From Holophagales bacterium (GTDB lineage Bacteria; Acidobacteriota; Holophagae; Holophagales; Holophagaceae): a stretch of DNA of 12,006 bases. The notes below the pieces were generated by a model, which was given only the letters and a program-made list of their open reading frames with translations, ran no database searches and was not told the DNA's origin. Both the position numbers and the translations under genes were made by a program. This document shows positions 5,599 to 12,006 of the stretch, one piece after another. Within the stretch, counting starts at the first letter, position 1. Each line of letters starts with the position of its first letter. The DNA lies in NCBI GenBank assembly GCA_031283145.1, contig JAITCJ010000174.1:1-12006 (forward strand). The letters are read 5' to 3'.

Positions 5599-5632
5599 AG
5601 CAGTTCAACTTTTTGTTATAATTCCTACTATA
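5596..5632. repeat. Decayed short inverted-repeat element starting TATAGCAGTTCAACT
   Basis: The first 15 bases equal the left arm of the perfect palindrome at 8227-8262. The stretch ends in CTACTATA, where the intact version has CTGCTATA, so this looks like a diverged copy whose right arm has mostly decayed. Its final TATA is shared with the left end of the element beginning at 5629. Confidence 0.4.
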
Positions 5633-5788
5633 GCCATTCAACTTTAAAATCATCCTATTTATCCAAGTGGAGGCACGAAGTGCCAGGGTTGCGCTATAGT
5701 GAAGTGAGCCGCCGACAGGCGGTGAGTGGAACGGTAGCGCAGACGAAAGCCACAGGGCAACGTACCGTTTTAAAGTTGTTTCACTATA
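5629..5788 (+). mobile_element. 160-bp MITE-like element, copy A
   Basis: The left end is TATAGCCATTCAACTTTAAA; the right end read on the minus strand is TATAGTGAAACAACTTTAAA. The two ends share TATAG and CAACTTTAAA with variable bases between them. The interior contains CCGCC-gaca-GGCGG and the block GTGAGTGGAACGGTAGCGCA, both shared with the elements at 8329 and, inverted, at 9200. An open frame crosses the element but has no RBS and reads into neighbouring repeats. The element has no transposase, so movement would depend on one supplied in trans. Confidence 0.75.
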
Positions 5789-5949
5789 ACGCGGTCAGTC
5801 GCTGTAAGTTACTATGCCGCCTCGCGGCGCCAAATCCAACGGCGATTTGCCTTCATTCCTGTCGGTGGCGCACGTAACGAAAACGCAGCCTTGAAACGAA
5901 GTGCTTCCCGCTTGGATAAACAGTATGATTTTAAAGTTGACTGGCTATA
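5785..5949 (-). mobile_element. MITE-like element, copy D, diverged or chimeric, inverted against copy A
   Basis: Read on the minus strand from 5949, the copy begins TATAGCCAGTCAACTTTAAA. It continues with blocks shared with copy B, such as GCACTTCGTTTCAAGGCTGC and TTCGTTACG. Beyond about 5865 it departs from the other copies and ends near 5789 without the TATAGTGAAACAACTT end. It shares the TATA at the right border of copy A, so A and D form a tail-to-tail inverted pair. A truncated copy completed by unrelated DNA, or a nested insertion, would both explain this. Confidence 0.55.
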
Positions 5950-8315: not shown

Positions 8316-8328
8316 AAGCAAATTGCTA

Positions 8329-8490
8329 TATAGCCAATCAACTTTTAAAGTGTCCTGTCAATCCAAGTTGGAGGCACTTCGTTTCAAGGCTGCGCCTTCG
8401 TTACGCGAACCGCTGACAGGCGGTGAGTGGAACGGTAGCGCAGACGAAAGCCACAGGGCAACGTACTGTTTTTAAAGTTGTTTCACTATA
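8329..8490 (+). mobile_element. 162-bp MITE-like element, copy B
   Basis: The left end is TATAGCCAATCAACTTTTAA; the right end read on the minus strand is TATAGTGAAACAACTTTAAA. The right 80 bases (from GGCGGTGAGTGGAACGGTAG onward) are nearly identical to copy A. It ends 32 bases before the aat start codon, and its terminal CACTATAGTC contains a TATAGT that could act as a -10 for aat. It is in mirror orientation to copy C, which lies on the other side of aat. Confidence 0.75.
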
Positions 8491-8522: not shown

Positions 8523-9218
8523 ATGCCTGTTTATTTACTTTCCAGCAGCACTGTTTTTCCCGATCCGGAAGAAGCTGAACCAAACGGACTTTTGGCTGTT
8601 GGCGGCGACCTGAGTGTCAAGCGCCTTGTTCAGGCATATGCTCACGGTATTTTTCCGTGGTTTGGTCTGGGGGAGCCTGTATTGTGGTGGTCGCCGCCGG
8701 AGCGCGCGGTCTTTTTACCCGAACAGGAACATTTTTCAAAGCGGACAATGAGGGCGCTAAAGCGAATCCCATTTGAAATACGTATGGACACCGCATTTAA
8801 ACAAGTGATTAATTGCTGCTCGGAAGCACCGCGCAAAGGGCAGGAAGGCACATGGATAACACATGAAATGATAAAGGCTTACACAGACCTTCACCACGCC
8901 GGATACGCCCATTCGATAGAGACTTACTTAGACAATCGTTTAATTGGTGGTTTATATGGTATTTCTCTCGGCTCGGCCTTTTTTGGCGAGAGCATGTTCA
9001 ACCTGGTGGATTACGCCTCCAGAGCGGCCTTTGCCGCACTTTGTGAAAAAGTGTGGAATTGGGGCTTCCACTTTATTGATGGGCAGTTGCCGAATGAAAA
9101 TCTGAATTCACTCGGCGCGAAAACAATGCCTCGCCGCGTTTTTCTGGAACGTCTGGAGTCGGCTTTAAAAAATCCAACCAAGCAGGGAAGCTGGACATGT
9201 ATAGTGAAACAATTTTAA
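8523..9218 (+). CDS. aat: Leucyl/phenylalanyl-tRNA-protein transferase
   Basis: The 231-residue product transfers Leu or Phe from aminoacyl-tRNA to proteins with N-terminal Arg or Lys, marking them for ClpS/ClpAP degradation in the cytoplasm (N-end rule). Family hallmarks are visible: FPDPEEAEPNGLLAVGGDLS (12-31), the AYAHGIFPWF motif, LWWSPPERAVF, TWITHEMIKAY, GLYGISLGSAFFGESMF and FIDGQLPNENLNSLGAKTMP near the C-terminus. The length is typical. The start is the first ATG in frame; a clear Shine-Dalgarno is missing, with only weak AGAAAT upstream. The stop codon (9216-9218) and the last five residues (IVKQF) lie inside the terminal repeat of the miniature element at 9200, so the original 3' end has been replaced. 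The catalytic core is unaffected. Confidence 0.96.
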   Translation: MPVYLLSSSTVFPDPEEAEPNGLLAVGGDLSVKRLVQAYAHGIFPWFGLGEPVLWWSPPERAVFLPEQEHFSKRTMRALKRIPFEIRMDTAFKQVINCCSEAPRKGQEGTWITHEMIKAYTDLHHAGYAHSIETYLDNRLIGGLYGISLGSAFFGESMFNLVDYASRAAFAALCEKVWNWGFHFIDGQLPNENLNSLGAKTMPRRVFLERLESALKNPTKQGSWTCIVKQF

Positions 9219-9360
9219 AACGGTACGTTACCCTGTGGCTTTCGTCTGCGCTACCGTTCCGCTTACCGCCTGACGGCGGCTCACTTCACTACAGCGCAGC
9301 CTTGGCACTTCATGCCTCCCATTTGGATAAACAGGATGATTTTAAAGTTGAATGGCTATA
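9200..9360 (-). mobile_element. 161-bp MITE-like element, copy C, inserted at the end of aat
   Basis: The left border is TATAGTGAAACAATTTTAAA and the right border, read on the minus strand, is TATAGCCATTCAACTTTAAA. It is an inverted copy of the elements at 5629 and 8329, sharing GGCTTTCGTCTGCGCTACCG and CCGCC/GGCGG blocks. Its left terminal repeat encodes the end of aat. Its right end lies 26 bases before the DUF2520 gene, so any promoter or terminator between these two genes is inside or beside the element. Confidence 0.75.
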
Positions 9361-9386
9361 TTTGAATTTCCCGCCATCATAAACCT

Positions 9387-10199
9387 ATGACGCCTCATTT
9401 CACCATTCTTGGTCGCGGCAAAGCCGGACGCGCGCTGGCGAGCGCGTTGAGCGGGGCAGCCGCACTTGAAACTCATGAATCAAACCCTGAAGGACCTGTT
9501 TTACTCGCTATTCCTGATAGCGCCATAGAAAAATACGCTGCCAAATTTGCGGGCAGATGCGTTCACATGAGCGGTTCGCTCCACATTGGGGGTGTGCCGT
9601 CGCTACATCCGCTGACTAGTTTTGATGGCTCTGCCAGAGATTGGAGCGGTATTCCGCTGGCGGTTACAGGTATGCCGCCAAATGTAATCCTGGATGCTTT
9701 TATCTCCCTGGGCTTTATCCCCTTTAATTTACCTCCAAATCTGAAGCCGCTCTACCATGCCTGCGCGGTCATGGCCTCAGGACACGCCGCTACACTTTGG
9801 GCGGCAGCGGAATCAATTCTGGCTTCATCAGGAATAGCCCTTCCTGGTCGCGGCCTCATCGGGTTAGCTGAATCAACGCTTGAAAAGCTCAAGCAGCGCG
9901 GCAAGGGCGGTATCACAGGCCCCTTTGTAAGAGGGGACAGCGATACAATCCAAAGAGACCGCCAAGTCCTCCCCGAACAATGGCGCGATTTGTTTGTTGA
10001 GTTGGGCGAGATGACGGATCGGGAAATAAAAGAAAAAAAGGCTCCGGTTAAGGAGCCTAAAAACCCTTTACGGGAAGGTTGCCCGTATGAGGGGCAGAGC
10101 CTACAGACACAAGAAATGAGTCTTTACTGTGACACACAACAAGCGCCTGCTCAAGTACACTCATGTATAATATCAGGGAAAAAATGGAACGCAAGATGA
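9387..10199 (+). CDS. Rossmann-like domain and DUF2520 protein with an antisense-tracrRNA C-terminal tail
   Basis: The product is 270 residues, cytoplasmic, of the DUF2520 group: an NAD(P)-binding-like N-terminal fold joined to a helical dimerisation domain, distantly related to F420-dependent NADP oxidoreductases and 6-phosphogluconate-dehydrogenase-like proteins. The nucleotide-binding loop is ILGRGKAGRAL (Gly9, Gly11, Gly14). LLAIPDSAI, SLHPLTSF (72-79) and ITGPFVRGDSDTIQRD (176-191) are typical family signatures. No reaction is established for the group. From about residue 214 the chain is low-complexity and charged, and is encoded by DNA antisense to the tracrRNA and its terminator, so the last ~55 residues are probably not ancestral. 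Its TGA overlaps an in-frame cas9 ATG (10196) as ATGA. No Shine-Dalgarno precedes ATG 9387. Confidence 0.85.
   Translation: MTPHFTILGRGKAGRALASALSGAAALETHESNPEGPVLLAIPDSAIEKYAAKFAGRCVHMSGSLHIGGVPSLHPLTSFDGSARDWSGIPLAVTGMPPNVILDAFISLGFIPFNLPPNLKPLYHACAVMASGHAATLWAAAESILASSGIALPGRGLIGLAESTLEKLKQRGKGGITGPFVRGDSDTIQRDRQVLPEQWRDLFVELGEMTDREIKEKKAPVKEPKNPLREGCPYEGQSLQTQEMSLYCDTQQAPAQVHSCIISGKKWNAR
10027..10058 (-). terminator. Intrinsic terminator of the tracrRNA
   Basis: On the minus strand AGGCTCC-ttaacc-GGAGCCT (10058-10039) forms a perfect seven-pair stem with a six-base loop and is followed by TTTTTTCTTTTA. On the plus strand the same stem is followed by AAAAACCC, so it terminates leftward transcription only. 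It lies inside the plus-strand DUF2520 frame. Confidence 0.85.
10033..10160 (-). ncRNA. tracrRNA of the type II CRISPR-Cas system
   Basis: Read on the minus strand, this region has the order expected of a type II-C tracrRNA. The anti-repeat candidate comes first (about 10160-10126, ending GTGTGTCACAGT). AAAGAC follows, then an imperfect stem AGACTCA...TGTGTCT (10123-10105) and GGCTCTGCCCC (10101-10091), whose TGCCC pairs with GGGCA (10084-10080). A further possible stem is AACCTT/AAGGGTT (10080-10062), and the RNA ends in an intrinsic terminator. The AAAGA...CTCTG...terminator layout recalls Campylobacter jejuni tracrRNA, and GCTCTGCCCC occurs, from memory, in Neisseria meningitidis tracrRNA. 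It is adjacent to and divergent from cas9. The 5' end is estimated from a promoter at 10194-10167 and is uncertain by several bases. The repeat it should pair with lies outside the window. Confidence 0.8.
10166..10194 (-). promoter_or_regulatory. tracrRNA promoter, overlapping a plus-strand TATAAT for cas9
   Basis: On the minus strand TTGCGT (10194-10189), a 16-base spacer and TATTAT (10172-10167) make a reasonable sigma-70-type promoter, with a predicted start near 10160. On the plus strand TATAAT occupies 10166-10171, practically the same bases, and could drive cas9 from about 10178, though without a good -35. RNA polymerase could not occupy both at once. The promoter DNA also encodes the first residues of Cas9. 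Confidence 0.5.
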
Positions 10200-12006
10200 A
10201 AAATGAAACCCCCTATCCTGGTCAAATCGCTTATAAAGTGGGGCTGGATCTCGGAAGCGCTTCCATTGGCTTGTGTGTAATTCAGTATGTCTGGGACGAA
10301 AACGTCCAAGAATGGAAGCCAAATGGGATTGAAGGGCTTGGCGTAAGGATATTTACCGCCGGAACAGAGGGGGACATTGAAAAGGGGCGCGATGAGAGTC
10401 GAGGCGTACAGCGAAGAATGGCAAGAGGGGCAAGGCGCAATCTTGCAAGACGATCTGGACGGATGCACGACTTATTTTTGAAACTGGTCAGTGCTGGGCT
10501 ACTGCCAACGCCGCTGGACCTGCACAAAGGTCCTTTGGCTCCAATTATTGACAGTACCCTGAAAGAATTAGACTTGGAGCTAATCAGAATGGGCGGGGAT
10601 TCGTCAAGGTTGCCTTATTATTTAAGGGCAAAAGCCTTAGATCGGCAATTAACGCCATATGAATTGGGGCGCACTCTCTATCACTTGGCCCAGCGAAGGG
10701 GATTTAAAAGCAATAAAAGAGCCGATGCAAGGACAGACGCTGAAGAGCGCGGCAAGGTCAAGGATGGTATTCGCTTACAGCGGGAAAAACTGGAAGTAAA
10801 AGGAGCGAGGACAATCGGCGAGATGCTGAGCAAAGAAGACCCTGAAACAGATCGTATTCGAGCCAGATACAACGCCAGGGACATGATTGAACACGAGTTC
10901 AATACTATTTGGGAAAGACAGAATAAATACCACCCGAACCTTTTGACGGAAAAATTGAAAGGGGACATACACGAGCGCATTTTTTACCAGCGCCAGCTAA
11001 AACCAGTGGATCATTTAGTCGGCTATTGCAGTTTGGAGCCGGGAAGATGGGTCAATGTAAAGCGATGGAAGAGAAGGGATGGCAGGAAATTGGATGAGCC
11101 TAAGCCAATGCGGGTTTGCAAAGCGCCGCACCGCTTGGCTCTGGCAGACCCACTGGCTCAACGCGTGAGATTGTTGCAGCGATTGAACGACCTGAAAATA
11201 AACCATGTTGATGGTACAGTAAGTGATTTATCCCCAGAGCAAAGAGCTTGGTTGTTGGAGAACTTGCAAGATGGCGACATTACATTTAGAGAAATCCAAA
11301 GGCAATTAGGTTTGAGCAGACAGGACAAGCTCAACCTTGATAGTGGCCAAAAGGCTTTGGTTGGCAACCGTACGGCAGGCAAAATGAGGGCTGTGCTTGG
11401 GGCAGTTTGGGATTCATATTCAGAATCAGATAAGACCAAATTGGTACATCAAGTAATAAAGGCTCAAAACATTGATGAATTAATGACAAAGTTGGAAAAA
11501 GAATGGAACCTGGAAAAAAATGTGGCGTCCAAAGTGGCCGATACTGACCTTGAAGATGGTTATTTATCCTTTAGCCGCACAGCGTGTGAAAAGTTGTTGC
11601 CAGGTTTAGAAGCCGGACAGAGCCTGAACACTATCAGAGAAGAAATATATGGCGCGTCCAAACCGCAGGAGCCGTTGAATGAACTGCCTATCGTCGCTGA
11701 GGCTTTCCCGGACCTGAGAAATCCAGTTGTCAGCCGGGTTTTAACAGAACTCCGCAAAGTGATCAAGGCCATCATCAGAAAATGGGGGCTACCCCAATCG
11801 TTCACTTTGGAACTGGCAAGGGAGCTTAAAAACAGCCGCGAAACACGCAAAATCATAACAAAGAATATTGAAGAACGCGCTGGTGAACGCGAAAAAGCCA
11901 AGAGAGCGTTGATTGACAGTGGGCTTGTGCCAAATCCGAAAGCGCGGGATATAGAAAAGTACTTACTTTGGGAGGAATGCGGCGGCCCGCTGGCTATCTG
12001 TCCTTA
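10184..12006 (+). CDS. cas9: Type II-C-like Cas9 endonuclease, N-terminal ~607 residues (3' end outside window)
   Basis: This is an RNA-guided double-strand DNA nuclease of a type II CRISPR system, open to the window end. RuvC-I is YKVGLDLGSASIGLCVI with Asp22. The Arg-rich bridge helix is at about 72-95 (RGVQRRMARGARRNLARRSG). The recognition lobe includes QRRGFKSNKR and FYQRQLKPVDHLVGYCSLEP, typical of compact Cas9s. RuvC-II is SFTLELARELKNS with Glu543, and the HNH domain begins at about 590 (EKYLLWEEC...AICP); its His is outside. The spacing suggests a full length of about 1,100 residues, an estimate consistent with II-C. ATG 10184 is preferred because AGGGA (10175-10179) precedes it; ATG 10163 (longer) and ATG 10196 (ATGA overlap with the upstream stop) are alternatives. 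RuvC-I has Leu-Cys where many Cas9s have Trp-Ala. cas1 and cas2 are not in view. Confidence 0.95.
   Translation, partial: MERKMKNETPYPGQIAYKVGLDLGSASIGLCVIQYVWDENVQEWKPNGIEGLGVRIFTAGTEGDIEKGRDESRGVQRRMARGARRNLARRSGRMHDLFLKLVSAGLLPTPLDLHKGPLAPIIDSTLKELDLELIRMGGDSSRLPYYLRAKALDRQLTPYELGRTLYHLAQRRGFKSNKRADARTDAEERGKVKDGIRLQREKLEVKGARTIGEMLSKEDPETDRIRARYNARDMIEHEFNTIWERQNKYHPNLLTEKLKGDIHERIFYQRQLKPVDHLVGYCSLEPGRWVNVKRWKRRDGRKLDEPKPMRVCKAPHRLALADPLAQRVRLLQRLNDLKINHVDGTVSDLSPEQRAWLLENLQDGDITFREIQRQLGLSRQDKLNLDSGQKALVGNRTAGKMRAVLGAVWDSYSESDKTKLVHQVIKAQNIDELMTKLEKEWNLEKNVASKVADTDLEDGYLSFSRTACEKLLPGLEAGQSLNTIREEIYGASKPQEPLNELPIVAEAFPDLRNPVVSRVLTELRKVIKAIIRKWGLPQSFTLELARELKNSRETRKIITKNIEERAGEREKAKRALIDSGLVPNPKARDIEKYLLWEECGGPLAICP

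Follow-up and report, generated by a model that had tools for sequence, protein, structure and literature searches.

Minus strand 10161-10027 of the window (the whole 12,006-base stretch of DNA analyzed here) is very likely the tracrRNA gene of the CRISPR-Cas9 system next to it, which is predicted to be of type II-C. Judged from the sequence and its relatives, we give this reading a probability of about 0.95. Transcription is predicted to start beside the cas9 start, run away from cas9, and stop at an intrinsic terminator (Table 1). By analogy with the known pathway, the 36-nt anti-repeat would form a duplex with the repeat portion of the pre-crRNA, and this duplex would be either cut by RNase III or loaded uncut. 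The hairpins that follow the anti-repeat would dock in Cas9, and crRNA:tracrRNA would then guide cleavage. The locus comes immediately after the last conserved codons of a DUF2520 gene, and in the window the frame of that gene continues through the tracrRNA DNA to the cas9 start. This is very likely a tracrRNA locus with the usual placement, in an ordinary system; the overlap with the DUF2520 frame is slightly unusual and is not conserved in the sister species G002.

Table 1. Coordinates of the predicted tracrRNA, its parts, and the flanking genes in the window
Feature	Position	Strand	Basis or detail
Predicted tracrRNA transcript, about 135 nt	10027..10161	-	Anti-repeat pairing, fold, terminator, identity with G002
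Anti-repeat, full 36 nt	10126..10161	-	Duplex with G002 repeat
Hairpin directly after anti-repeat	10105..10123	-	Consensus of four close loci
Second stem, AGG..UGCCC/GGGCA..CCU	10076..10102	-	Consensus fold, four loci
Intrinsic terminator	10029..10058	-	Stem 10058-10039 plus U-tract
Candidate promoter	10167..10194	-	-35 TTGCGT (10194-10189), 16 nt, -10 TATTAT (10172-10167)
DUF2520 ORF, 270 codons	9387..10199	+	Frame uninterrupted throughout; Pfam DUF2520 match, residues 100-208
cas9, 5' part	10196..12006	+	TIGR01865, E 9.6e-101, model positions 1-574 of 1070

The locus in the window and in a sister species

The window makes up a complete contig in a 1.32 Mb assembly of 207 contigs that is 64.3% complete, and cas9 is cut by the contig end, with its 5' part alone present. 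A PF18541 search for cas9 in the same genome gave no match, because the contig stops before that domain; control genomes gave none either. The likely cas9 start, ATG 10196, was chosen via alignment to G002 and overlaps the DUF2520 stop codon (TGA, 10197-10199).

G002 belongs to the same genus, and its locus lies on a 39 kb contig in the order DUF2520, tracrRNA, cas9 (1072 aa), cas1, cas2, and array, with about 50 nt between cas2 and the array and at least 32 repeats before the contig ends. Profile matches identified Cas9 (HNH_4 and RuvC_III), Cas1, and Cas2 and no fourth cas gene; cas9, cas1, and cas2 are the gene content of type II-C. The crRNA sense of the repeat in this array (L046, 1-2120) is opposite to the cas genes, and the repeat ends in TACAAT. 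A -10 element embedded in the repeat is known from Neisseria, and the G002 repeat end resembles it. The genes upstream of DUF2520, read by eye from the ORF lists, are the same in G002 and the window; a profile match confirmed aat alone, in the window. On either side of aat lie related repeats of about 90-160 bp in inverted orientation (8320-8476 and 9213-9369), and copies also occur near 5.7 kb (5620-5788 and 5858-5949). A 71-nt piece of these has 41 matches in the 1.32 Mb assembly, which points to a dispersed element present in many copies, perhaps a miniature transposon or a REP-like family.

Anti-repeat, fold, and candidate promoter

Pairing in the window was measured with the G002 repeat as a stand-in, the window's own repeat being absent from the assembly. 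When the 36-nt G002 repeat was scanned against the window, minus strand 10126-10161 scored 70.5, compared with 34.0 for the next-best site and 31.0-36.5 for five shuffled repeats. The corresponding values in the G002 locus itself were 67.0 for repeat and anti-repeat, 31.0 for the next site, and 31.0-33.5 for shuffles. The duplex of the window anti-repeat with the G002 repeat, at -57.0 kcal/mol, was the best among 13 distinct repeats. A preliminary description had guessed the anti-repeat to be 10160-10126, which is right to within a base (10161-10126). Its call of a functional tracrRNA holds as a prediction, since the repeats of related loci pair with exactly the minus strand of 10126-10161. 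The pairing check that it proposed came out positive with the stand-in repeat (70.5 versus 34.0), but no array was found in the 1.32 Mb, 64.3% complete assembly: a pattern from the repeat-like end, allowing up to three mismatches, had the site itself as its sole match in the genome. A better anti-repeat elsewhere had been named beforehand as a finding that would count against the call, and none was found in the window or in the 12 kb of G002.

The predicted fold of 10027-10165 on the minus strand has an energy of -47.2 kcal/mol, whereas 200 dinucleotide shuffles had a mean of -33.7 (z = -3.98; one of the 200 was equally good). A consensus structure was derived from four close loci (the window, G002, G031, and G065), and 98.8% of its cells are paired. 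Four pairs are altered on both sides, against 1.5 in shuffles, and 7 of 500 shuffles reached four; this test, we stress, gives modest support, because the structure was derived from the alignment also used to test it and the four sequences amount to two pairs of relatives. Within the hairpin directly after the anti-repeat, which we take to be nexus-like by position, one pair varies on both sides across the four loci (A-U, G-U, G-C), and the innermost pair is absent in the window. The pairs of the second stem are invariant in the four loci and offer neither support nor objection. Three stem pairs of the terminator are altered on both sides in G031. A weaker terminator-like stem was seen on the minus strand at 10087-10069, so that two such stems were found, compared with 0.7 ± 1.0 in shuffles; a scan of the plus strand from 9900 to 10400, which detects intrinsic terminators only, found none. 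The stems, the U-tract, and the open plus-strand frame are thus where the preliminary description had placed them, as judged by the fold, the terminator scan, and the ORF. The Rfam search that it suggested did not return a tracrRNA: the window had no match at or above the gathering cut-off (release 15), and none of six weaker matches in 9900-10400 was a tracrRNA.

Sixteen loci were searched for a -35/-10 pair oriented toward the anti-repeat and separated from it by about 4-7 nt, counted from the end of the -10. At 14 of them, a match this good occurred in no more than 5% of 600 windows drawn at random from the locus itself (3.8% for the window of this study); the exceptions were L003 (9.8%) and L089 (6.2%). 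When the comparison was made more stringent, with 600 shuffles of the 60 nt in question, the figure stayed at or below 5% in nine loci and exceeded it in seven, including the window (6.3%). A TTGA-type -35 at 16-17 spacing recurs in distant loci, whereas the TTGCGT of the window is a poor -35. Taken alone, the match to the candidate promoter in the window is weak; similar spacing recurs in the putative promoters of relatives. In the window, TATAAT on the plus strand and TATTAT on the minus strand overlap, offset by one base. A symmetric -10 shared by the tracrRNA and cas9 was considered and rejected: 50% of shuffles that kept the minus-strand hexamer were equally good, and none of the 16 loci fell below 12%.

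Among genomes of the class, 4 of 93 have a Cas9 relative, as do 14 of 396 across the phylum (the genome of the window is in both counts); relatives also turned up at 12 loci of genome_contigs. Twenty-five loci were examined, L001 and L047 being the same records as L091 and L092 and counted once; 20 of these have an array, and L002, L009, L011, L085, and L090, in which no array was found, were left out of the pairing. A minus-strand anti-repeat lies upstream of cas9 in 15 of the 20 array-bearing relatives, which, together with the promoter match on that strand, bears out the claim that the tracrRNA is upstream of and divergent from cas9. In 14 of the 15, the top match and the approximate start of cas9 are 34-222 nt apart. 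At the remaining locus, L084, it is 427 nt from cas9, with a second site 55 nt away; the two anti-repeat-like sites are at about 6512 and 6884 in cas9 orientation. The repeat of the same locus was the best of the 13 partners in eight of 15 loci and second or third in seven, a test that has little power within clades because the repeats are nearly identical there. Between clades, it was clear for L003, L005, and L012; the anti-repeat score of L003 is marginal (48.0, with shuffled repeats reaching 46.5). The scan gave no anti-repeat above noise in five array-bearing relatives (L004, L006, L007, L008, and L010), all members of a single distant group. Three are titled Elusimicrobiales, and two are uncultured bacteria with nearly the same repeat and an equally distant Cas9 (24-25% identity). 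The tracrRNA of these five may be shorter or lie elsewhere.

The DUF2520 frame and alternative readings

The plus strand of the element is part of an open frame, and the conservation could in principle be that of the C-terminal coding part of DUF2520, with the RNA stems incidental. The frame is open across the entire tracrRNA DNA. A tail in the same frame, 63% identical over 80% of residues 206-270, is also seen in the metagenomic DUF2520 protein P0001, though without the final seven residues of the window frame. With the window and P0001, the extension is present in at least two lineages. However, P0001 was retrieved by a search with the tail and is no unbiased sample, and frames open over 136 nt are common here (6 of 45, in 6 of 15 loci; L091, whose contig starts inside the tracrRNA, was left out). 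The DUF2520 frame ended at residue 209-218 in all 25 other full-length family loci examined (L043-L045, whose contigs end inside the gene, were left out), which indicates that the overlapped frame is mostly read-through and not a conserved gene end. The conserved part spans about 9387-10016, and what follows residue ~210 is read-through of the tracrRNA locus. Among the best 120 of the 573 nearest DUF2520 proteins, none had a tail beyond the terminator; one of the 120, P0015, has a short tail like that of G002. The pattern of substitution points the same way. When the window is compared with G002, identity in the coding part is 66.6% (419/629), with mismatches of 48/36/126 by codon position, whereas the tracrRNA part is 85.9% identical at the nucleotide level (116/135), with mismatches of 7/4/8 and two one-base indels; the overlapped stretch thus changes like an RNA and not like a protein. 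We regard the coding explanation as highly improbable. The preliminary description had the RNA lying opposite the 3' end of a protein gene, which needs amending: the open frame stands, but the conserved DUF2520 gene ends before the RNA.

In G002, the DUF2520 frame has 221 residues, its TAA stop falling within the terminator stem. A difference of 8 nt immediately ahead of the terminator shifts the phase of the window frame relative to G002, and the frame then reaches 10199. The native stop appears to have been lost in the window, and the overlap of frame and tracrRNA is likely lineage-specific. Translational coupling of DUF2520 and cas9 through the TGA over the ATG (10196-10199) was also considered; it is not conserved, the G002 frame ending about 140 nt before cas9. 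At L003, a 251-codon plus-strand ORF (9161-9916) with no Pfam match spans the tracrRNA DNA too and may be spurious.

The plus strand of 10126-10161 is a degenerate copy of the CRISPR repeat, repeat-like over the full 36 nt, which would also fit a stray ectopic repeat, a scaRNA, or a natural single guide in place of a tracrRNA. Yet the repeat has no second partner site that scores above the range of its shuffles, the strand of the anti-repeat is also the one with the terminator and hairpins, and 15 of 20 loci share the arrangement. Furthermore, pairing between the anti-repeat and the 300 nt upstream of it on the tracrRNA strand does not exceed that of shuffles: the best duplex was -25.6 kcal/mol in the window (111 of 200 shuffles as low) and -28.3 kcal/mol in G002 (15 of 200). 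A single-guide form like the long tracrRNA tracr-L is therefore not supported, and we consider any of these readings extremely unlikely. A further idea concerns the DUF2520 message, which, if it ran unterminated through the tracrRNA locus into cas9, might act as a sponge or a noncanonical crRNA that ties Cas9 loading to the cas9 message. Such a read-through RNA, if made, would carry the exact complement of the tracrRNA, pseudo-repeat included. The idea draws on Campylobacter, in which mRNAs pairing with tracrRNA can serve as noncanonical crRNAs (PMC8224270). Because the start of the pseudo-repeat closely resembles that of the array repeat, a guide derived from the pseudo-repeat would probably spare its own locus. 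If read-through RNA does pair with the tracrRNA, Cas9 loading could depend on cas9 transcription, but we think this improbable.

Comparison with known systems

The tracrRNA reading adds a well-supported predicted tracrRNA for a Cas9 clade of Acidobacteriota relatives, where Rfam misses the one in the window. It also carries a caution that gene callers may extend proteins through structured RNA: the last 50-60 residues of the DUF2520 frame are tracrRNA DNA. The divergent type II-C arrangement itself is already in print. In Bordetella pseudohinzii, a tracrRNA equipped with promoter and terminator lies upstream of cas9 and diverges from it (PMC4624362); the accessible part of that report does not mention an overlap with a neighboring frame, which the window has. 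A search of open-licence PMC literature found no report of a tracrRNA inside the frame of a neighboring non-cas gene. Streptococcus pyogenes likewise has its tracrRNA locus with the cas genes, and there, in a type II-A system, tracr-L serves as a natural single guide and represses the cas promoter (PMC11417352); in contrast, no repeat mimic was found upstream of the window anti-repeat. The CRISPRCas_38 tracrRNA model, type II-C and mostly from Bacteroidetes, is typically placed up to 100 bases upstream of cas9 and overlapped a predicted coding region in 50 of 599 positions (PMC9067536). That overlap is with the cas9 start, for which its authors give occasional misassignment of cas9 starts as a likely explanation, whereas the tracrRNA of the window overlaps the frame of the upstream gene. 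The CRISPR1 locus of Riemerella anatipestifer has cas9, cas1, and cas2 and, as in the window, an anti-repeat upstream of cas9; its anti-repeat is 16 nt (PMC5006608), whereas that of the window is repeat-like over the full 36 nt.
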